Positions 24,290 through 61,902 of a stretch of 64,000 nucleotides of DNA are shown piece by piece. A program made the translations under genes and the position numbers. Source of the DNA: a virus. The stretch is from the IMG/VR virus record IMGVR_UViG_3300043399_000633, positions 1-64,000 of that record; one strand, written 5' to 3'. The notes under the pieces were generated by a model, which saw only the letters and a program-made list of their open reading frames with translations, was not told the origin of the DNA and ran no database searches. Every line of letters starts with the position of its first letter. The first letter of the stretch is position 1.

Positions 24290-25390
24290 ATGAGTTACCT
24301 ATTTACGAGTGAAAGTGTCAGCGAAGGTCATCCCGACAAAATAGCTGATGCAATTAGTGATGCAATATTAGATTTACTAATGGTTAGTGAAGATTCATCA
24401 TTAAGGTGTGCATGTGAAACTCTTGTTACCACAAATAAAGTTATCATAGCAGGTGAATATAAGGGTTTCTTACATGAACTTCAAGTAGATAGTACGGTAA
24501 GAAAAGTCGTAAAGTTGTTGGGATATGAACAAGATGGGTTTGATTGGAGAAAACTTCAAGTATTAAATTTCATGCATGGCCAAAGTGCTGATATAGCACT
24601 CGGCTCTGATACGTTTGGTGCCGGAGATCAGGGATTGATGTTTGGTTATGCTTGTAACGAAACATCAGCTTACATGCCCAGTGCTATATATTGGTCACAT
24701 CGAATCGTAGAAAAATTGGCTGAATTGCGCAAGAACAAAGTCATGACCTGTTTAGGTCCAGATGCAAAAAGCCAAGTAACATTCGAATATGACGAAAACA
24801 ATAAGCCAATTAGAATTGCCAAAGTAGTTTGCTCTACACAACACACAGAAGATACTGAAATTAATTCATTGCGTAAGGCAGTGGAAGAAGTTATTCGTGC
24901 AATTTTACCCAGGGAATATTTAGATAATGGCACTGAGTTTTTTATTAATCCTACTGGCCGTTTTGTTATCGGTGGCCCTGATGGTGATACGGGTCTCACA
25001 GGTCGTAAGATTATTGTTGATACTTATGGTGGGTATAGCCCTCATGGGGGCGGGGCTTTCAGCGGGAAAGATCCCACAAAGGTGGACCGTAGTGCTGCAT
25101 ACATGATGCGTTACATTGCTAAAAACATTGTAGCTAGTGGTAAAGCAGATTGGGCAACGTGTCAAATTAGTTATGCCATTGGTTTAAAAGACCCTATGAG
25201 TTTCTATATAGAAACGGCTGATACTGCAAAAGCGAGACAATTAACCAAATGGGTACAAGACAACGTTGACCTAACACCTAAAGGCATCATTGATAAATTT
25301 AAACTATTCAGACCAATTTATAGTAAGACTACAAATTATGGTCATTTTGGTAAACCTGACCTCCCTTGGGAAGAAGTAAATTTATTCTAA
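24290..25390 (+). CDS. metK: S-adenosylmethionine synthetase
   Basis: 366 residues. SESVSEGHPDKIADAISDAILD (residues 6-27), GAGDQGLMFGYA and GGGAFSGKDPTKVDRS are the three MetK signatures, including the ATP and K+/Mg2+ sites. It makes SAM from Met and ATP. SAM would feed at least five methyltransferases and three radical SAM enzymes in this window. An RBS (AAGGA) precedes the ATG. It is intact, slightly shorter than bacterial MetK (about 384). Confidence 0.97.
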   Translation: MSYLFTSESVSEGHPDKIADAISDAILDLLMVSEDSSLRCACETLVTTNKVIIAGEYKGFLHELQVDSTVRKVVKLLGYEQDGFDWRKLQVLNFMHGQSADIALGSDTFGAGDQGLMFGYACNETSAYMPSAIYWSHRIVEKLAELRKNKVMTCLGPDAKSQVTFEYDENNKPIRIAKVVCSTQHTEDTEINSLRKAVEEVIRAILPREYLDNGTEFFINPTGRFVIGGPDGDTGLTGRKIIVDTYGGYSPHGGGAFSGKDPTKVDRSAAYMMRYIAKNIVASGKADWATCQISYAIGLKDPMSFYIETADTAKARQLTKWVQDNVDLTPKGIIDKFKLFRPIYSKTTNYGHFGKPDLPWEEVNLF

Positions 25391-26457: not shown

Positions 26458-26838
26458 ATGGCCTATTCAGATAAAGTATTGGATCACTATAATAATCCCC
26501 GCAATGTAGGTTCATATAAAAAAACTGATGAAGATGTTGGGGTAGGTCTTGTAGGAGCCCCTGCATGTGGGGATGTCCTTCAGTTAAGTATTAAAGTAAA
26601 TAAAGAAACGGGGTTGATAGAAGATGCTAGATTTAAAACGTATGGGTGCGGGTCGGCGATTGCTGCATCAAGTCTTGTCACAGAATGGGTTAAAGGGAAA
26701 TCGCTCGATGAAGCCGCAACAATCCGAAATACTGAAATCGCACAAGAACTCGCACTTCCCCCAGTCAAAATCCACTGCTCAATTTTAGCAGAAGATGCAA
26801 TCAAAGCTGCCATTGATGATTACCGAAAAAAACATTAA
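26458..26838 (+). CDS. iscU: IscU-like Fe-S cluster scaffold
   Basis: 126 residues, full length. All cluster ligands are present: C37 and D39 in GAPACGDV, C64 in YGCGSA, H106-C107 in KIHCS. LPPVK at about 100-104 is the HscA chaperone-binding motif. It assembles [2Fe-2S] and [4Fe-4S] clusters with sulfur from host IscS. Its own late promoter motif lies upstream, and the DUF1289 gene overlaps its end. Likely clients are the radical SAM and Rieske enzymes in this window (inference). Confidence 0.95.
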   Translation: MAYSDKVLDHYNNPRNVGSYKKTDEDVGVGLVGAPACGDVLQLSIKVNKETGLIEDARFKTYGCGSAIAASSLVTEWVKGKSLDEAATIRNTEIAQELALPPVKIHCSILAEDAIKAAIDDYRKKH

Positions 26839-29823: not shown

Positions 29824-30569
29824 AAACTGTCATCACGCATTTTTATAACGAAGAACACTTATTACCCTGGTGGCTTGAATACCATAAGAAAATTTTTGAT
29901 TTTGGTGTATTGATAAACTATCAAAGCACAGACCGTTCTGTAGAATTATGTAAAGAAATATGTCCACATTGGCAGGTTGTTTCTTCGATGCACACATATT
30001 TTGATGCTGAAAATTGTGACAACGAAGTAACCTTTTATGAAAATCAATTATCAGGTTGGAGAATCGCATTAACTACAACAGAGTTCTTAGTGGGCAATGT
30101 TAATAAATTGTGCAACAACAACCCTGCACATCAACAACATATTATACCGGGCATAAGATTTACTAAATGGGATCCATTAGGTTCACTTGATAGAAATAAA
30201 CAATTATGGGAACAAGTTACTACTGGGATATCGTATTATGATAATTACATTGCACATCAAGGTAGAAGCTTGCATAATTACACTGGATTGAAGTATCCCA
30301 CTGGTCGTCACTTTGGACCATACACCACAGAAGAAGCTTTAATATTTCATTACGCACATGCAATTGTTGGTAAAGAAATGATACAACGGAGACTACAGTT
30401 TCAATATAAAATTAGTGACAGGGATAAAGAACGTGGTATAGGAAATCATCATTATGTAAATAAAAATGGACTCACGTTTAATGGACTCTATGAAATGCAT
30501 ACACATTTTATATCACAAGGTCAAACTGATTGTTCCGTTTTTATTGAAAAAATGTTCGGGAAACAATAA
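29820..30569 (+). CDS. glycosyltransferase (GT2/GT92-like)
   Basis: 249 residues beginning TVITHFYNEEHLLPWWLEYHKK, the signature of this glycosyltransferase clan (an INYQSTD region replaces the usual DxSTD). His-rich later motifs (YAHA, HTH) follow. It is coupled (ATGA) to the C-methyltransferase, so it probably transfers the modified sugar. Acceptor unknown. Confidence 0.75.
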   Translation: MKTVITHFYNEEHLLPWWLEYHKKIFDFGVLINYQSTDRSVELCKEICPHWQVVSSMHTYFDAENCDNEVTFYENQLSGWRIALTTTEFLVGNVNKLCNNNPAHQQHIIPGIRFTKWDPLGSLDRNKQLWEQVTTGISYYDNYIAHQGRSLHNYTGLKYPTGRHFGPYTTEEALIFHYAHAIVGKEMIQRRLQFQYKISDRDKERGIGNHHYVNKNGLTFNGLYEMHTHFISQGQTDCSVFIEKMFGKQ

Positions 30570-30579
30570 AATGCATCAT

Positions 30580-30654
30580 GCGCTTGTAGTTTAGTGGCAG
30601 AATCAGGGTCTCTAAAGCCCACAGGCATGGGTTCGAATCCCATCGAGCGCACCA
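30580..30654 (+). tRNA. suppressor tRNA, anticodon CUA (reads UAG)
   Basis: 75-nt cloverleaf. Acceptor GCGCTTG pairs with CGAGCGC, the D arm is GTTT/GAAT, the anticodon loop CTCTAAA puts CTA at 30612-30614 after U33, the T arm is ATGGG/CCCAT with TTCGAAT, and A73-CCA is encoded. The outermost anticodon-stem pair is A-A and the innermost is a wobble. It is 27 kb away from the main tRNA array and directly upstream of a gene with an in-frame UAG. The amino acid charged cannot be told. Confidence 0.88.
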
Positions 30655-30657
30655 ATC

Positions 30658-30664
30658 ATAAATA
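30658..30664 (+). promoter_or_regulatory. late promoter motif between suppressor tRNA and amber gene
   Basis: ATAAATA starts 4 bp after the tRNA CCA end and 19 bp before the ATG at 30683. The downstream gene can therefore be transcribed late on its own. Confidence 0.55.
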
Positions 30665-30682
30665 CATTTTTAGGAGAAAATA

Positions 30683-31246
30683 ATGTCGTAGATTGAATAT
30701 GCTTGTAAAGATATAGTCTTCCACTTCAACAAGAAGCATTTAGAAGACGAGACCATTCCCATGTGGGTTTTAAAATTTCATGGTGAAACGTATTATGTGA
30801 ATCATGTGGAATGCAATATTCCCTGGTCTACCAAAGAGACACCCGATAATTCACATACTAAAGGCAGTATCAAAGTCAAAGACTGTTTATTACAGATTGA
30901 CGAGAACAACGAAGCCAAAATACTACCCATTACTATCATAGATAAAGCACGAATCCATAATGCCAAGAAAGGTATTACACGTATAGTTATTAGCGAGAAG
31001 AACTTTGGTGGAAATAAACTACGCAATATTTTACAAGAGCGCAATATTAAACATGGACCAATCAAAAGCATAGGTGGAGCCTGCACAACAACTTTTTACG
31101 TAACTGATATATACAACCAATCTGATGTCGTATATCTTGCATTGATGCTGAGTGATACAGATTTTAGAAAACTCATGCCCAATGAAGGATACTATAAAAT
31201 GTATGATGATCCTAAATACAGTGCTGATATCGATTTGGATATATGA
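30683..31246 (+). CDS. conserved phage protein with in-frame amber at codon 3
   Basis: The real start is ATG 30683: AGGAG at 30672-30676 is ideally spaced and the frame runs ATG-TCG-TAG-ATT and onward to 31246 (187 codons). If UAG is read, the protein is full length. If not, only an ATG at 30761 without RBS remains (161 residues). Residues before 30761 (VFHFNKKHLEDETIP) look like genuine coding sequence. The protein is alpha/beta with no known motif. The stop is a double TGA. Confidence 0.75.
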
Positions 31247-31677: not shown

Positions 31678-32691
31678 ATGAAAAAATTTATTATTGGTTT
31701 ATTTACACTATTTGCGTTAACTTCATTGAATGCAGCAGACATCACCGGCGCCGGTGCAACATTTCCTTATCCAGTTTATGCCAAATGGGCAGAACTGTAT
31801 AAAAAAGAAACAGGCGTAGGTCTTAACTACCAAAGCATTGGGAGTTCCGGTGGAATACGCCAAATCAATGCAAGAACTGTTGTATTTGGTGCAACTGATG
31901 CACCAGTAAAAGGTGAAGACCTAGATAAAAACGGGCAAGTACAATTTCCGGCTATTATTGGTGGAACTGTTCCTATCATCAATTTAGAAGGCTTTAGGCC
32001 AGGTGAATTACGTATTACAGGTCCAGTACTTGCAGAAGTTTTTATGGGAACGATAACTCGTTGGAATGATCCGAAACTGGTTGCACTCAATCCGGGAAAA
32101 AGACTTCCTAATCAAAATATCACTGTGGTTCATCGAGCAGATGGTAGCGGTACTACATTCAACTGGACTGATTATTTAACAGTAGTTAGTCCAGAATGGG
32201 CTCAGCGAGTAGGACGCGGCCCAGCAGTCAAATGGCCTGCAGCAAGTTCAGTGGGTGGTAAAGGTAACGAAGGTGTTGCAGCTATTGTTGAAAGAATTAA
32301 AGGTAGCATAGGATATGTTGAATATGCTTATGTAAAGAAAAATAATCTAGTGTTCATGCAGTTACAGAATAAAAACGGCAGATATGTAAACCCCGACGAT
32401 GTTACCTTTGCTGCTGCAGCAGCAGGTGCAGACTGGTTTAGTGTACCCGGTATGGGACTAAGTATAGTAGATCAACGCGGTGATAACGTATGGCCTATAA
32501 CTACAGCTAGTTTTATCATCATGTACAAGAATCCAGAAAACAAAGTAGCTAGTCAAGAAGTCTTAAAGTTTTTTGATTGGGCATTTAAGAATGGTAAAAA
32601 AGCAGCAGTAGAATTAGATTATGTACCATTACCTGATAGTTTAGTACAACAGATTCGACAGCGTGTTTGGACTCAAATAAATAACAAGTAA
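31678..32691 (+). CDS. pstS: phosphate-binding protein PstS
   Basis: 337 residues, with a signal peptide cut near LNA (19). ITGAGATFPYPVYAKWA, the IGSSGGIRQI loop, and VHRADGSGTTFNWTDYL form the phosphate site. It captures phosphate in the periplasm for the host PstCAB transporter. It is preceded by a PhoB box and followed by a strong terminator structure, so it is an independently regulated unit. It is an auxiliary metabolic gene known from marine T4-like phages. Confidence 0.97.
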   Translation: MKKFIIGLFTLFALTSLNAADITGAGATFPYPVYAKWAELYKKETGVGLNYQSIGSSGGIRQINARTVVFGATDAPVKGEDLDKNGQVQFPAIIGGTVPIINLEGFRPGELRITGPVLAEVFMGTITRWNDPKLVALNPGKRLPNQNITVVHRADGSGTTFNWTDYLTVVSPEWAQRVGRGPAVKWPAASSVGGKGNEGVAAIVERIKGSIGYVEYAYVKKNNLVFMQLQNKNGRYVNPDDVTFAAAAAGADWFSVPGMGLSIVDQRGDNVWPITTASFIIMYKNPENKVASQEVLKFFDWAFKNGKKAAVELDYVPLPDSLVQQIRQRVWTQINNK

Positions 32692-33750: not shown

Positions 33751-34317
33751 ATGAAAACAGTTGGTAATAAATTAGAAGCATTTGTCGTAACAGGCGTCAA
33801 TCCCGGTAGCGATCAATTCTTTGACATTACGGAAAAGAGTTTTGAAGGTAAGTGGAAAGTAATTGTCTTTTACCCAAAAGATTTTACTTTCGTATGTCCA
33901 ACCGAAATTGTTGCATATGACAAGTTGTTCCAAGACTTTGCAGATCGTGATGCAGTACTGTTAACTGGTAGTACAGATAATGAATTCTGCAAGTTGGCTT
34001 GGCAAAGTGCTCATCCTGATTTAAAGAAGATTAGGCATATTCAATTTGCCGATACACAACGTGGTCATTGGAAAGGCGATACATTTGTAAACTTGAGCTT
34101 GTCAGAAAATTTAGGTATTTTCAGTCCCAAACACGGTGCGGTACTTCGTGCAACATTCATTGTTGATCCAGACAATGTGATTCAACATGTTACTGTTAAT
34201 AACCTAGATGTTGGTCGTAGCCCAGAAGAAACATTGCGTGTTCTAGATGCTCTACAAACTGGGGAACTTTGTCCTTGCAGCCGTCCCGTTGGCGGAGACA
34301 CTTTGAGAACCGCATAA
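33751..34317 (+). CDS. ahpC: peroxiredoxin, AhpC type
   Basis: 188 residues. FYPKDFTFVCPTEI holds the peroxidatic Cys at about 49 with its Thr. C-terminal ELCPCSRPVGG has resolving cysteines. It reduces H2O2 and organic peroxides. It resembles the AhpC class that partners with AhpD rather than AhpF, and an AhpD-like gene lies 4 kb downstream, which supports a phage-encoded pair. RBS AAAGGAG. Confidence 0.93.
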   Translation: MKTVGNKLEAFVVTGVNPGSDQFFDITEKSFEGKWKVIVFYPKDFTFVCPTEIVAYDKLFQDFADRDAVLLTGSTDNEFCKLAWQSAHPDLKKIRHIQFADTQRGHWKGDTFVNLSLSENLGIFSPKHGAVLRATFIVDPDNVIQHVTVNNLDVGRSPEETLRVLDALQTGELCPCSRPVGGDTLRTA

Positions 34318-58100: not shown

Positions 58101-58175
58101 AGGGGGTTCGCCAAGTGGTAAGGCATCTGATTTTGATTCAGACATTCGGTGGTTCGATCCCATCACCCTCTGCCA
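58101..58175 (+). tRNA. tRNA-Gln(UUG)
   Basis: Anticodon loop TTTTGAT (anticodon TTG), D arm GCCAAGTGGTAAGGC, T loop TTCGATC, G73 and CCA encoded. Confidence 0.93.
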
Positions 58176-58176
58176 A

Positions 58177-58316
58177 TCTAATATATTCTAGCACTTAGAG
58201 AATGACTGCACGGGACTGTGGAGCAAAGCAGGAACCCGGCGGCAATAATTGGGTGGTAGCTTGAACCCTACTTCTTGATTCTCATTCTGGTTCACTGAGT
58301 GCTAGAATATATTAGA
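58177..58316 (+). ncRNA. long-stem RNA element 2 with pseudoknot
   Basis: A 22-bp stem (58177-58198 with 58295-58316, one G-U) fills the whole gap between two tRNAs. Inside, CTGC/GCAG (58206-58209, 58228-58231) and CGGG/CCCG (58211-58214, 58235-58238) can form an H-type pseudoknot, and GTAG/CTAC a hairpin. Confidence 0.65.
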
Positions 58317-58321
58317 TACAA

Positions 58322-58396
58322 GCCTGGTTAGCTCAGCGGTAGAGCAGCGTCTTGATAAGGCGTTGGTCGGTGGTTCGACCCCACCACTAGGCACCA
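58322..58396 (+). tRNA. tRNA-Ile(GAU)
   Basis: Anticodon loop TTGATAA, acceptor GCCTGGT/ACTAGGC, A73 and CCA encoded. Confidence 0.93.
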
Positions 58397-58404
58397 CAAA
58401 TTAT

Positions 58405-58481
58405 GGGCCATTAGTTCAGTTGGTAGAACGCCTGCCTTGCAAGTAGGATGTCGTGGGTTCGATTCCCACATGTGTCCACCA
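58405..58481 (+). tRNA. tRNA-Ala(UGC)
   Basis: Anticodon loop CTTGCAA on a CCTGC/GTAGG stem. The 3' acceptor strand is one base too long (ATGTGTCC against GGGCCAT), giving a bulged T. CCA encoded. Confidence 0.88.
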
Positions 58482-58484
58482 AAA

Positions 58485-58580
58485 ACAAACTGGGATTATT
58501 GTCAGTCAGGTCAGACGGCTCAGTTCGAAGTAACCGTTCAACATTCTTCGTTTGTGATAAATACATCAAGGAGAATAAGT
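58485..58580 (+). promoter_or_regulatory. leader of the first HNH gene with late promoter motif
   Basis: ACAAAC/GTTTGT (58485-58555) encloses a CGAAG/CTTCG hairpin. ATAAATA (58557-58563) follows and the RBS CAAGGAG precedes the ATG at 58581. Confidence 0.45.
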
Positions 58581-59045
58581 ATGTTACTTCAATCATCTAA
58601 AATCAAGTGCAGGCACTGTGAGAAATTAATTTTTCCGCATAGTGTCACCAGGCACGATGCGGTGTGTCATCTTCACCCGGACAATATAAGACTATGTAAG
58701 ATATGTAACGAGCCAATTTTTAATTGGCGAGAATCAAAGGGAACATGTTCACATGCATGTGCTAATAAGCTGTTCAGAACAGGTGAAAATCATGGGAATT
58801 GGAAACCAGAACGGTATCAAACTACTTGTTTTGAACACCATGAAAGAAAATGTGTAGTATGTGGGGAAGATAAAGTAGTTGCGGTCCATCATCTAGACCA
58901 TAGCAAGAAAAATAATCACCCTTCAAACCTGATTCCAATGTGCCCGACGCATCACCAATATTGGCATAGTAAGTATAGAACATTAATTGAGGATAAGGTT
59001 CTATCTTACATAGAATCTTGGAAGAAAAAGAATAACTCTCTATAG
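58581..59045 (+). CDS. HNH endonuclease with zinc fingers, in tRNA array
   Basis: 154 residues from ATG 58581 (RBS AAGGAG); ATGs upstream lie in tRNA-Ala. Two N-terminal Cys pairs (CRHC, CKIC) suggest zinc fingers, then CVVCGEDKVVAVHHLDH, NLIPMCPTHH is the HNH core with metal His. It is probably a free-standing homing nuclease. Its TAG stop (59043-59045) lies inside the 5' end of tRNA-Pro. Confidence 0.88.
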   Translation: MLLQSSKIKCRHCEKLIFPHSVTRHDAVCHLHPDNIRLCKICNEPIFNWRESKGTCSHACANKLFRTGENHGNWKPERYQTTCFEHHERKCVVCGEDKVVAVHHLDHSKKNNHPSNLIPMCPTHHQYWHSKYRTLIEDKVLSYIESWKKKNNSL

Positions 59046-59111
59046 CGTAACCAGGTAGCGTTCCTGATTTGGGGTCAGGAGGTCGGGGTTCGAATCCTCG
59101 TAGGGAGACCA
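59036..59111 (+). tRNA. tRNA-Pro(UGG)
   Basis: Acceptor CTCTCTA/TAGGGAG, anticodon loop TTTGGGG (TGG), T loop TTCGAAT, CCA encoded. The first ten bases also encode the end of the HNH gene. Confidence 0.92.
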
Positions 59112-59117
59112 AACATT

Positions 59118-59212
59118 GGAAAGTAATGCAGGCATATTGGTGTGCCGACTAGTTTCGAAAGCTAGGTTCCCATGTGACATGGGATGGGGTTCGATTCCTC
59201 TGCTTTCCGCCA
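59118..59212 (+). tRNA. tRNA-Ser(CGA)
   Basis: Class II with a 7-bp variable arm TCCCATG/CATGGGA. Anticodon loop TTCGAAA, G73, CCA encoded. Confidence 0.9.
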
Positions 59213-59217
59213 GTTTT

Positions 59218-59277
59218 AGGATGCTAACAGCAAATTTTAACATCAAACTGCTAATTTGAAACGTTAAAACGCATCCT
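59218..59277 (+). ncRNA. small closed pseudoknot RNA between tRNAs
   Basis: Outer stem GGATGC/GCATCC (59219-59224, 59271-59276). Inside, CAAATT/AATTTG (59231-59236, 59253-59258) and TTAAC/GTTAA (59237-59241, 59263-59267) interlock as an H-type pseudoknot. It lies between tRNA-Ser and the second tRNA-Gln. Confidence 0.6.
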
Positions 59278-59290
59278 GTGATATATCTGT

Positions 59291-59367
59291 TGGGGTGACA
59301 TACGACGGGAAGTATACTGGGCTTTGAACTCAGGTCTTAGTCGGTTCGAATCCGACCACCCTTGCCA
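59291..59367 (+). tRNA. tRNA-Gln(UUG), second copy
   Basis: Anticodon loop CTTTGAA on CTGGG/CTCAG, T arm GTCGG/CCGAC, G73 and CCA. The first acceptor pair is T-T, and weak 1-72 pairs are normal for Gln. Confidence 0.85.
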
Positions 59368-59404
59368 AATTTTTTGTCAGCATAGTTTGTCACTAAATAG
59401 TGAT

Positions 59405-60229
59405 ATGAATATTTCCTATGCTGATAATGGATGGACTGTGTTCATCAACGATGATCTAACCACATTGTCTAACGACGAAATAAAGCAAGTTGCTAAATTC
59501 GTTGTTACAAATATGGTTGTTGTGTTCAAAAAACAAAACCTTACTCCAGAACAGGAATTAAAATTCTGTAGAGTGATAGGCAATCACCAGTACTACCCTG
59601 CTTCGTATGAACGAGGAAAGCATATCAGATTGAATGACGGTATACTTAGGGTGACTGGTAAAAAAAATGAATATGGCGAACCTGGACTTTTTGGCCATAC
59701 TTCTGCACTTGATTGGCATGCCAATCAACCTAGTAACAAAGAACGTAAGCCATTGATTTGGTTGTACGGTGCAGAAGGGACTAAGGGTTCAAGAACAAGC
59801 TGGCTCAACAATATTGCTAGCTATCAGGATTTGCCCACTGATCTCAAAAATGAAATTGATAGTCTACAAGTTTTTTGTGGATACGCAAAAGGCAAGTATT
59901 CTAATAGTTCTTATTTTGTAGAACATGTCAATGAGTCTAATCCCATTGATCTTGTTCAAACAAACAAAGAAGGTAAGAAGGGATTGTTTTTTCCATTCTT
60001 ACAAATATTCGGCTTTAAAGATAAAGACGAACAGTATTTCAACAAAATAATGCAACAATTGATCGATCATGTCGTTCAAGAAAAGTACATGTATCATCAT
60101 GATTGGGATGACGGAGATGTTGTCATTTCAGAACAAATATTAAGCATCCACAAACGTTGGGCTTTTGATGATATGGAAAATCGTGTGTTGCATAGAATTG
60201 CGTTTGACTATTCAAACGTATACAAATAA
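59405..60229 (+). CDS. TauD/TfdA-like 2OG-Fe(II) dioxygenase
   Basis: 274 residues from ATG 59405. VVVFKKQNLTPEQELKFCRVIG is abridged: it is the N-terminal TauD pattern. GHTSALDWHANQPS holds the first iron His, but the usual Asp is Asn (H-x-N), and SIHKRWAFDD plus RVLHRIAFDY give the distal His and the cosubstrate Arg. It differs from the eight small oxygenases. The Asn may lower activity or allow halogenation-like chemistry (speculation). It lies alone between tRNA genes. Confidence 0.82.
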   Translation: MNISYADNGWTVFINDDLTTLSNDEIKQVAKFVVTNMVVVFKKQNLTPEQELKFCRVIGNHQYYPASYERGKHIRLNDGILRVTGKKNEYGEPGLFGHTSALDWHANQPSNKERKPLIWLYGAEGTKGSRTSWLNNIASYQDLPTDLKNEIDSLQVFCGYAKGKYSNSSYFVEHVNESNPIDLVQTNKEGKKGLFFPFLQIFGFKDKDEQYFNKIMQQLIDHVVQEKYMYHHDWDDGDVVISEQILSIHKRWAFDDMENRVLHRIAFDYSNVYK

Positions 60230-60234
60230 TCATT

Positions 60235-60309
60235 GCTCGGTTCGTCTATCGGTTAGGACGCTGGCCTTTCACGCCGGAAAGAGGGGTTCGACTCCCCTAC
60301 CGAGTACCA
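60235..60309 (+). tRNA. tRNA-Glu(UUC)
   Basis: Anticodon loop CTTTCAC on CTGGC/GCCGG, acceptor GCTCGGT/ACCGAGT, CCA encoded. Confidence 0.93.
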
Positions 60310-60318
60310 AACAATTTT

Positions 60319-60394
60319 GCCGCTTTAGCTGATGTGGTCATAGCAACGGTTTGAAGCATCGTGGAACTAGGTTCGATCCCTAGAGGCGGCACCA
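60319..60394 (+). tRNA. tRNA-Phe(GAA)
   Basis: Anticodon loop TTGAAGC on ACGGT/ATCGT, acceptor GCCGCTT/AGGCGGC, A73 and CCA. Confidence 0.92.
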
Positions 60395-60400
60395 AACATT

Positions 60401-60476
60401 GCCCGCGAAGTATTAGCTGGTGGTATGCCGCCTTCGTAACGCGGAGGATTCAGTTCGAGGCTGAACGCGGGCACCA
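60401..60476 (+). tRNA. tRNA-Thr(CGU)
   Basis: Acceptor GCCCGCG/CGCGGGC, loop TTCGTAA (CGT). The innermost anticodon-stem pair is C-C. T arm TTCAG/CTGAA, CCA encoded. Confidence 0.87.
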
Positions 60477-60478
60477 AT

Positions 60479-60567
60479 AGTGAGATGCCAGAGTTGGTCT
60501 ATTGGCACTGATTGGAAATCAGTTGGTCGGAAACGGCACAAGGGTTCGAATCCCTTTCTCACTGCCA
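60479..60567 (+). tRNA. tRNA-Ser(GGA)
   Basis: Class II. Acceptor AGTGAGA/TCTCACT, loop TTGGAAA, long variable arm, G73 and CCA. Confidence 0.92.
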
Positions 60568-60570
60568 AAT

Positions 60571-60642
60571 TTGACAACAAATGCACTTGGTGATATACTA
60601 TGTGCATACGCTGAGAAATCAGCGACGATCTTTAAAAAGTTG
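60571..60642 (+). promoter_or_regulatory. sigma70 promoter with rrn-like leader (boxB-like hairpin and boxA)
   Basis: TTGACA (60571-60576), 17 bp, TATACT (60594-60599). About 10 bp on, CGCTGA-GAAA-TCAGCG (60609-60624) forms a GNRA hairpin, followed by GATCTTTAAAAAG, which resembles rRNA-operon boxA. The layout repeats at 61185. Confidence 0.7.
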
Positions 60643-60823
60643 TGTTCTTAAGGCTGATGACGGCAATCGTCAGAAGGCTTTAATCCAACCCCGAGCAGAG
60701 TAGCTTTGCCGAGCGAAGTGTTAGGGAGTCTCTATCATTTAGCGGATAGGATACCGGCTCATCGAGCGGGTCACGGTGGGTTCGAATCCCCCTAGAGTTT
60801 ATTGGACGTCAGCCTTAAGAACA
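60643..60823 (+). ncRNA. long-stem RNA element 3 enclosing a tRNA-like sequence
   Basis: A 15-bp perfect stem (60643-60657 with 60809-60823) encloses 150 nt. This holds a GACG/CGTC hairpin, AAGGCT/AGCTTT and the tRNA-like segment at 60728-60801. Confidence 0.6.
60728..60801 (+). tRNA. degenerate tRNA-like sequence
   Basis: T arm with TTCGAAT, D-like arm TTTAGCGGATAGGAT and acceptor CTCTA/TAGAG are present, but there is no CCA and the anticodon arm folds two ways (CGA with GGCTC/GGGTC stem, or CAT). Probably not an active tRNA. Confidence 0.4.
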
Positions 60824-60831
60824 TATAGTAT

Positions 60832-60906
60832 ACACCGTGAGGCAGCTGGAGTGGCCGATAGTCCTTCAAACTATTGAGATGGGATCAAAACCCATACGGT
60901 GTACCA
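60832..60906 (+). tRNA. atypical tRNA, anticodon UUC with C33 and A54
   Basis: Acceptor ACACCGT/ACGGTGT, stem ATAGT/ACTAT with loop CCTTCAA (C33 instead of U33), and T loop ATCAAAA (A54 instead of T54). CCA encoded. Reads as Glu by anticodon, but both changes are rare. Confidence 0.65.
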
Positions 60907-60913
60907 ATCACAT

Positions 60914-60989
60914 GCCGTAGAGTCCACCTGGGGGTGATACTTCACTGTCTATGAAGCAGCGGCGGGTTCGATTCCCGTCTACGGCGCCA
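60914..60989 (+). tRNA. tRNA-Asp(GUC)
   Basis: Acceptor GCCGTAG/CTACGGC, loop CTGTCTA on CTTCA/TGAAG, G73 and CCA. Confidence 0.93.
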
Positions 60990-61057
60990 AAATTGAGAAC
61001 TTCAATGAACACGAGGAGTTTAATTCATGAAGCGTCCTTCATGGTCTCATTCAATTT
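60990..61057 (+). ncRNA. closed pseudoknot RNA between tRNA-Asp and tRNA-Asn
   Basis: Outer stem AAATTGA/TCAATTT. Inside, CTTCAaTGAA/TTCATGAAG (9 bp with a bulge) and loop GAGGA with downstream TCCTT form a pseudoknot. Confidence 0.5.
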
Positions 61058-61061
61058 CTAT

Positions 61062-61140
61062 TCCGCGGAATCCGAGCGTGGTGCACGGACTTGACTGTTA
61101 ATCAATGACTAGCTGGGATCGTCACCCAGACGCGGAGCCA
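61062..61140 (+). tRNA. tRNA-Asn(GUU)
   Basis: Loop CTGTTAA, G73, CCA encoded. The T loop is ATCGTCA, again with A54. One mismatch each in acceptor and anticodon stems. Confidence 0.82.
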
Positions 61141-61146
61141 AACATT

Positions 61147-61174
61147 AAGACTTTAAATAATCATACTTAAAGTC
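61147..61174 (+). terminator. 9-bp hairpin after tRNA-Asn
   Basis: AGACTTTAA/TTAAAGTCT with a 10-nt loop and no T run. It may be a processing or weak termination signal before the next promoter. Confidence 0.4.
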
Positions 61175-61184
61175 TGACTAATGG

Positions 61185-61256
61185 TTGACAATAATTCGTG
61201 CAGGTGCTACAATACATGCATGAGTTGAGAAATCAACTAGTTCTTTATACAATTTA
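61185..61256 (+). promoter_or_regulatory. second sigma70 promoter with rrn-like leader
   Basis: TTGACA (61185-61190), 17 bp, TACAAT (61208-61213), then GTTGA-GAAA-TCAAC (61224-61237) and TTCTTTATACAATTTA (61240-61255), close to the rrn boxA region CTCTTTAACAATTTA. The hairpin stem covaries with the copy at 60610. Confidence 0.72.
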
Positions 61257-61266
61257 ACGGTTTCAA

Positions 61267-61325
61267 GGTATTACGTTAAAGAGACACTGGGTTTTCACTA
61301 GTGTTCGTTGACGTAACGTGATACC
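61267..61325 (+). ncRNA. stem-closed RNA element 4
   Basis: A 12-bp stem GGTATTACGTTA with its partner (one G-U) closes an ACACT/AGTGT hairpin. Its last bases overlap the 5' arm of the next element. Confidence 0.5.
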
Positions 61326-61424
61326 ATATTTCAACGCATTAGTGGAGGTTTGCTCAGTAATAGCAACCTTTAAATGAGATGGCTCTGATCTTATCACGCC
61401 AATAGTGTGTTGAAATATGGTATC
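61320..61424 (+). ncRNA. long-stem RNA element 5
   Basis: A 22-bp stem (61320-61341 with 61403-61424, two G-U) bears CGCATTA/TAGTGTG next to the core. The core holds AGGTT/AACCT and a possible CTCA/TGAG pseudoknot (weak). It ends directly at tRNA-Tyr. Confidence 0.65.
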
Positions 61425-61425
61425 G

Positions 61426-61509
61426 GGAGGTTTGGCAGAGCGGTCGATTGCGCCTGACTGTAAATCAGGTCTTAACAGCACGGTGGTTCGAATCCATCAG
61501 CCTCCACCA
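61426..61509 (+). tRNA. tRNA-Tyr(GUA)
   Basis: Class II. Acceptor GGAGGTT/AGCCTCC, loop CTGTAAA on CCTGA/TCAGG, long variable arm, CCA encoded. Confidence 0.92.
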
Positions 61510-61515
61510 ATTATC

Positions 61516-61614
61516 GGGCACGTAAGCATCTAGCGGAAGATGCTACTCGCTGTGTTGCCATGAATACAGCAAATAAGGAGGAGAGTGCAGGTTCGAGTCC
61601 TGTCGTGTCCACCA
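61516..61614 (+). tRNA. atypical tRNA-like, possibly Gly(GCC), with enlarged loops
   Basis: Acceptor GGGCACG/CGTGTCC and T arm GCAGG/CCTGT are normal and CCA is encoded. The D stem has 6 bp, the anticodon stem CTGTG/TACAG carries a 10-nt loop TTGCCATGAA, and about 14 unpaired bases precede the T stem. It may be a decoy or an inactive tRNA. Confidence 0.5.
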
Positions 61615-61621
61615 AAACAAT

Positions 61622-61692
61622 CCTTGAGTTTGACTGGTCTGCGCGCGGCTTGTTAATAGTTGGGAATGTCACTTTCGACAGTGACCTCAAGG
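61622..61692 (+). ncRNA. stem-closed RNA element 6
   Basis: CCTTGAG/CTCAAGG (61622-61628, 61686-61692) closes a core with a GTCACT/AGTGAC hairpin. Confidence 0.45.
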
Positions 61693-61740
61693 GCCCCAAG
61701 TTATGGAGATAGAAACTGACAGATTGAATTAAGTCCTCGT

Positions 61741-61820
61741 GGAGGCGGATACTGGTTCAATGGTCAGCGGATAACGTGGACGGCGTATGGGTCATGCCTA
61801 TACGCAGGCGGTCTCCACCA
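61741..61820 (+). tRNA. tRNA-like molecule with CAU loop but no T arm
   Basis: Acceptor GGAGGC/GTCTCC and encoded CCA. One arm (CTGG...TCAG) and an 8-bp anticodon-type stem (61783-61790 with 61798-61805) with loop GTCATGC (CAT after U33). No T arm is found between it and the acceptor. Confidence 0.45.
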
Positions 61821-61825
61821 AGATA

Positions 61826-61902
61826 TAGGCTTTAGAGTGATTGGAAATCCTATCTCTTTCATGAGGAGATGTTGCGAGGTTTGAATCCTCGATAGCCCAC
61901 AC
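61826..61902 (+). tRNA. degenerate tRNA-like with CAU loop and T arm
   Basis: T arm CGAGG/CCTCG with TTTGAAT, anticodon-type stem ATCTCT/GGAGAT with loop TTCATGA (CAT). The acceptor is only GGCT/AGCC and there is no CCA. Confidence 0.4.

Follow-up and report, generated by a model that had tools for sequence, protein, structure and literature searches.

Dedicated tRNAs that read a stop codon in particular genes are familiar from pyrrolysine and selenocysteine decoding, and the gene for release factor 2 (RF2, prfB) carries an early in-frame UGA that makes it autoregulatory, its synthesis being tied to the state of termination. Here we analyze a 64,000-nt stretch of phage DNA (the window; the first 64 kb of the 96,886-base IMG/VR record IMGVR_UViG_3300043399_000633) in which a suppressor tRNA with the anticodon CUA, tRNA(CUA), is followed directly by a gene with UAG as its third codon. 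Comparison of this gene with its relatives strongly supports the UAG as a gate, and very probably we are dealing with a gene whose start-proximal nonsense codon is controlled by the phage's own suppressor tRNA in the manner of a feed-forward switch on a small operon related to translation; charging of the tRNA, timing and the function of the protein are what we infer. The arrangement differs from that of RF2, which relies on a +1 frameshift and involves no suppressor tRNA. It also differs from pyrrolysine and selenocysteine decoding, where a special residue sits in an active site, whereas the phage gate lies at the extreme N-terminus among flanking residues that vary.

A similar logic has been engineered in the leak dampener of Ho et al. 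(PMC7969014), in which a gene carrying a nonsense codon is put under joint control with a suppressor tRNA, and which works in amber and opal versions. That circuit is synthetic, whereas the phage version is natural and conserved, with dedicated tRNAs. Code-15 phages (e.g., crAss-like phages; PMC9523058) are alike in that a phage tRNA(CUA) reads, or here would read, in-frame UAG while a standard-code host is being infected, but they have UAG in many genes, while in the lineage of the window a single UAG close to the start serves as the gate of one operon and elsewhere UAG still terminates. Suppressor tRNAs of the same class, without a known target, have been reported for XacN1 (PMC5852040), Summit (PMC9022506), RsoM2USA (PMC8504454) and Atu_ph07 (PMC6102473), and the authors of the XacN1 and Summit studies state outright that theirs is a suppressor tRNA in a standard-code phage without a known target (PMC5852040, PMC9022506). 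We found no description of a natural suppressor-tRNA gate in the literature searched, which left out most subscription journals, and the novelty of the finding is therefore provisional.

The elements of the locus in the window are these:

30544 to 30572, plus strand: promoter-like TTGAAA-17-TAAAAT 5' of the tRNA (consensus scan, 10 of 12 matches).
30580 to 30654, plus strand: suppressor tRNA(CUA) with an encoded CCA end, A73 and a U31.G39 closing pair (ARAGORN; Rfam RF00005, 59.2 bits; alignment).
30672 to 30676, plus strand: Shine-Dalgarno sequence AGGAG, 6 nt 5' of the ATG (sequence; homologues also have a Shine-Dalgarno-like site before the ATG).
30683 to 31246, plus strand: UAG-gated gene P0001, 187 codons counting the UAG as a residue (sequence, homologue comparison).
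30689 to 30691, plus strand: conserved start-proximal UAG, codon 3 (sequence; TAG in 92 of 94 homologous loci).
30761 to 30763, plus strand: internal Met, codon 27, the mechanical open reading frame (ORF) start and probably not the real start (selection on the preceding codons).

An initial annotation, made from the letters of the window, had described most of these elements, and the sequence bears it out. The tRNA is found by both ARAGORN and Rfam, and 28 nt beyond it, behind the AGGAG, the ATG (30683-30685), TCG and TAG (30689-30691) are followed by 184 sense codons and a TGA (31244-31246). The ARAGORN label 'tRNA-Pyl' is merely a name for the anticodon CUA; the alignment set the window tRNA beside 33 other phage tRNA(CUA).

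Conservation of the TAG carries the argument. When the read-through protein was used as query in a first scan of viral contigs, 30 relatives were found, and a second scan, with an alignment of 21 sequences (the window and 20 relatives), gave 314 matches, of which the best 80 were retained, yielding 94 distinct loci. Because the second scan relied on peptide patterns 3' of the TAG, this set was not selected for the TAG itself. Nevertheless, TAG is present at codon 3 to 10 in 92 of the 94 loci, where a Shine-Dalgarno-like site precedes the ATG, and is directly followed by I-E or a near variant. At the gate position these 92 loci never have TAA, TGA or a sense codon, and neither TAA nor TGA stands there in any of the 94, even though these genomes use TAA more than any other stop. 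None of the homologues begins at the Met at 30761, and the independent recurrence of TAG in dozens of assemblies counters the concern that a sequencing error had replaced a sense codon; the initial annotation had named homologues all beginning at that Met, or a sense codon on resequencing, as outcomes that would undo its reading. When 1.98 Mb of related phage DNA was scanned for a Shine-Dalgarno site, an ATG, at most 12 codons, a stop and at least 70 open codons, the window gene family contributed 89 TAG, 0 TAA and 0 TGA, and all other sequences combined contributed ~15 TAG, 20 TAA and 19 TGA. These counts rule out placement of the TAG by chance.

We asked how the codons behind the TAG evolve using 93 TAG-bearing sequences, window included (69 after near-duplicates were dropped); these had entered by their TAG, and for a count free of that bias the 92 of 94 loci above apply. 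Over the 23 codons from the TAG to the first conserved Met, nonsynonymous differences (pN) were 0.094 and synonymous differences (pS) 0.742, a pattern lost in both other frames. Such purifying selection indicates that the stretch is translated, and thus that translation from the ATG passes the TAG.

In the two exceptional loci, L143 and L164, the window-type gene has no TAG, and the first gene of the operon, which resembles genes for the peptidyl-tRNA hydrolase PTH2 (PTH2-like), has it at codon 3 (ATG-AAA-TAG or ATG-GCA-TAG). Elsewhere, GIY-YIG-like homing-endonuclease ORFs are inserted exactly behind the UAG start, in L028 (2311-2980), L127 (near 2329) and the L129 group (near 1576). After each insertion the downstream gene has a rebuilt ATG..TAG start, and the stranded remnant in the L129 group now has TAA in place of TAG.

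For 90 of the 94 loci the record also carries a tRNA(CUA): ARAGORN detects 70 of these, and the remaining 20 came from Rfam, from inspection by eye or from a covariance model. ARAGORN alone misses tRNA(CUA) with a short D arm, which Rfam and the covariance model recover. In the other loci the contig edge adjoins the gene (L003), the record is an 11-kb fragment (L011, L141), or the edge cuts a tRNA whose end is identical to a known tRNA(CUA) (L023). Compared with 425 other tRNAs from the same collection of loci, the tRNA(CUA) set is distinctive in its anticodon stem: pair 31-39 is Watson-Crick in 13% of them (it is mostly C.A) versus 91% of the others, and pair 27-43 in 36% versus 74%. A73 is present in 65 of 72, and G1-C72 and C2-G71 in most. 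Changes in the anticodon stem favor the reading of stop codons, mainly those at pair 27-43 (PMC13092985).

The same gate is found in other phages, mostly on PTH2-like genes. A tRNA(CUA) of the cultured Rhizobium phage RHph_I1_18 is directly preceded by an 82-codon version, MSEFM-UAG-NESC..., that the annotation lacks. In both Phosso and Atu_ph07, the domain of the window gene makes up the C-terminal portion of a longer protein, stop-free and encoded two genes after a PTH2 gene, and this PTH2 gene has its true start 5' of the annotated one. It reads ATG-AAG-TAT-TAG in Phosso, a genome with two tRNA(CUA), and ATG-ATT-GGC-GAA-CAC-TTT-TGA in Atu_ph07, where the suppressor tRNA has the anticodon UCA (this tRNA is also described in PMC6102473). 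Lock and key have changed together in Atu_ph07 (UGA and UCA in place of UAG and CUA), and we regard this as the strongest single item.

Homologues of the PTH2-like protein of L143 begin with MAQ-UAG-NEK in CBB and GAP32, MAH-UAG-NEK in Kaldavass and XbC2, MTH-UAG-NDK in Serratia phage BF and Erwinia phage SNUABM19, MTH-UAG-VET in LR756511, MT-UAG-IHE in Acinetobacter phage ME3 and ML-UAG-NKH in Salmonella phage Arash, and tRNA(CUA) is present in all of these. ORF364 of XacN1, a fusion of an HD-like part (recognized by eye) with PTH2, has its real start at MK-UAG-TIKAM..., while the related phages CM1 and RAS14 show MK-UAG-TLNKL... at that place and have a tRNA(CUA). The authors of the XacN1 study reported two tRNA(CUA) and found no target (PMC5852040). 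XacN1 (HD-PTH2 ORF364) and Atu_ph07 (the PTH2 gene) are thereby given a candidate target, while Summit and RsoM2USA are not. Tenacibaculum phage pT24 and the huge phages LR756500 and LR756501 each have a start-proximal UAG together with a tRNA(CUA). Conversely, the PTH2-like genes of RaK2, K64-1, RCIP0023 and Hallingskeid have no early stop, and no tRNA(CUA) was found in these phages among the covariance-model matches; in RaK2-type phages a TAG does lie 5' of the PTH2-like gene, without a plausibly placed start codon preceding it.

Assignment to PTH2 is of unequal strength. At the Pfam cut-off of 23 for PTH2 (PF01981), Phosso (60.6), LR756511 (27.8) and XacN1 (25.3) pass, whereas L143, L164, CBB and ME3 score 15.8-19.5, under the cut-off. 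By eye, the GK motif is replaced, e.g., by EQ, GQ or GY, in the PTH2-like proteins of L143, L238, L302, L303 and L305; its loss in many members suggests an altered activity. The window protein P0001 matches PTH2 neither by profile nor by fold, although its family shares operons with PTH2-like genes. It has no Pfam match, and its predicted structure (predicted local distance difference test, pLDDT, 84; predicted template modeling score, pTM, 0.59) has no significant fold match in the PDB. The one strong match in BFVD is an uncharacterized phage homologue of 160 aa, the length of a product starting at the Met at 30761. A scan of genome contigs gave no bacterial relatives, and the family is phage-only.

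Taken together, these comparisons suggest how the locus would operate. A good ribosome-binding site would direct initiation to the ATG, and at the UAG a few codons on, release factor 1 (RF1) would terminate translation and leave a short peptide. Once the phage tRNA(CUA) had been transcribed, processed and charged, and was abundant enough relative to host RF1, the UAG would be read and the full protein made. With the tRNA and the gene close together and probably co-transcribed, the result would be a coherent feed-forward loop; in the window lineage the nonsense codon and its cognate suppressor tRNA do lie in one unit, as such a loop requires. Since two outputs of one infection programme would be needed for one protein, leak would be suppressed and expression delayed. 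Co-transcription is likely because the two genes are only 28 nt apart, a sequence scan found no terminator-like site in that interval, and the promoter-like site that precedes the tRNA is weak (promoter-like sites around the tRNA locus are as numerous as the mean of shuffled sequence, which makes the one at 30544-30572 weak). The decoding of the UAG by tRNA(CUA), the amino acid inserted, the delay, and an action of the gated products on tRNA or peptidyl-tRNA are the putative parts of this scheme. The repeated choice of PTH2-like genes favors gated products that would act in tRNA or peptidyl-tRNA handling, and the purpose could be delay, leak-proofing, feedback on suppression, or tying a translation factor to the set of tRNAs that the phage encodes.

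The initial annotation had suggested that the suppressor may have this gene as its target, and this part is strongly supported by the conserved UAG, the linked tRNA, the selection on the codons that follow and the UGA/UCA pair. Its further suggestion of a timing switch, or a sensor of tRNA charging, is plausible. Its scope, a single locus, was too narrow, since PTH2-like genes in unrelated phages carry the gate too.

Several other explanations were weighed. The ATG-UAG might be a minimal ORF that does nothing but terminate, with the protein starting downstream, at the AUU or the internal Met, by re-initiation, and the stop tuning expression or sequestering the tRNA. An ATT does follow the TAG in most homologues, the internal Met is conserved, and in Mycobacterium phage IkeLoa a GTG after the TAG is the annotated start. 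However, TAA or TGA would serve for termination just as well and yet never occurs in the window family; the codon after the UAG is ATA, ATC, AAC, AAT, GTT or ACT in other members; the stretch ahead of the internal Met shows protein-level conservation; and in the PTH2 genes of Phosso and Atu_ph07 conserved sequence extends upstream of the annotated start. Such a leader would also leave unexplained why the stop is linked to the suppressor tRNA and co-varies with it, and we consider it unlikely. Starts at the internal Met or the AUU are themselves disfavored by the selection before the Met and the variable codons after the UAG. A pseudogene, an assembly error or a chance juxtaposition might be suspected if the single gene of the window were viewed by itself, but the TAG is conserved in 92 of the 94 loci, which come from many assemblies, and cultured phages show the gate in their isolate genomes as well; this reading is thereby already refuted, and we give it practically no weight. 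A different question is whether the same gate serves feedback rather than timing. The substrate of the gated product would then be aminoacyl- or peptidyl-tRNA, perhaps the suppressor itself, and the UAG would measure and restrain suppression. That gated genes are repeatedly PTH2-like, with XacN1, LR756511 and Phosso above the Pfam cut-off, that the window family sits in shared operons with PTH2-like genes, and that many PTH2-like members are without the canonical GK would all fit, while the window family has no recognizable fold and the loop itself is conjectural; we hold feedback to be a real possibility, though somewhat short of an even chance.

Recoding of the stop codon throughout the genome, as in code-15 phages, would make the window gene merely one of many. 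A tRNA(CUA) is indeed present, TAG is rare as a terminator in several genomes of the window lineage, and a second in-frame TAG lies inside the PTH2 gene of LR756501 (735 kb; L304 near 1290), which may be a truly recoded genome. Against this, homology-supported genes are terminated by TAG in nine of the ten records examined (2 of 54 such genes in the window record, and 7 of 95, 16 of 111 and 9 of 163 in others, with 0 of 60 in one record). A scan of N-termini found no other conserved family recurring besides the window family and its PTH2-like partner, and a scan for in-frame TAGs elsewhere was dominated by shadow frames: all of its matches resembled them, and the aligned residues varied. Scarcity of TAG in several genomes is what would be expected with a suppressor present, and it is still used as a terminator; the genes of the window tile without TAG read-through. 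We judge genome-wide recoding very unlikely. Membership in genetic code 15 was rejected: a tRNA(CUA) is present, but TAG still terminates, and among the N-termini scanned an in-frame TAG recurs only in the window family and its PTH2-like partner.

Other observations weigh against the gate or narrow it. All support for it is comparative, and its protein-level and expression side is something we infer; for co-transcription and the promoter, the evidence is the layout and a weak consensus match. The UGA/UCA pairing is a single case, one event. In IkeLoa, where a tRNA(CUA) is present, the start ATG-TAG-GTG is ambiguous, the GTG right after the TAG being a possible start, and LR745206, with a UAG in an HD-like gene, falls outside the set with a verified tRNA(CUA). 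The codons right after the UAG are less variable at third positions, and an overlapping RNA signal is possible there. Phage phiM19 has an ochre tRNA(UUA) (L263:1501-1576, i.e., 104363-104438), for which we found no convincing UAA-gated gene, and in Summit, used as a blind test, the suppressor tRNA has no full gated gene nearby. Near ~49443 of Summit (L345 near 2443) there is a mini-ORF, a Shine-Dalgarno site followed by ATG-AAG-TAG-GTC-TAC-AAG-CCG-CCG-TAA, 5' of gene 069 and the suppressor tRNA, which could be a leader peptide. With no clear gated gene in Summit and phiM19, the rule is not universal.

The surroundings of these loci include further features. ARAGORN finds 42 tRNA genes in the whole record, and the window tRNA(CUA) lies ~27 kb from the main cluster (58101-61900). 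By eye, host-type genes in the window comprise MetK-like (24290-25390), IscU-like (26458-26838), PstS-like (31678-32691) and peroxiredoxin-like (33751-34317) genes. Among the relatives, L029:5256-5714 is a GOLLD RNA (RF02032, 182 bits) that encloses a tRNA-Arg(UCU), and L022:2488-2568, on the minus strand, is a freshwater-2 RNA motif (RF02980) that lies a short distance 5' of the UAG gene; L011 near 2900 resembles it, and by eye both loci share a look-alike stretch directly 5' of the gene.

For over a dozen phages, cultured or huge, the conserved gated gene provides the suppressor tRNAs with candidate targets. Annotation pipelines miss such genes, which are unannotated in RHph_I1_18 and Serratia phage BF, and place the start too late in XacN1, pT24, Phosso and Atu_ph07. 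On the present comparisons, phages of at least three bacterial phyla probably keep a stop-codon lock and a suppressor-tRNA key on a PTH2-like operon, a natural regulatory class in which the main job of the tRNA would be to license one gene, and in which lock and key may switch from UAG/CUA to UGA/UCA. The gate would be a natural version of the leak-proof switch built by synthetic biologists.
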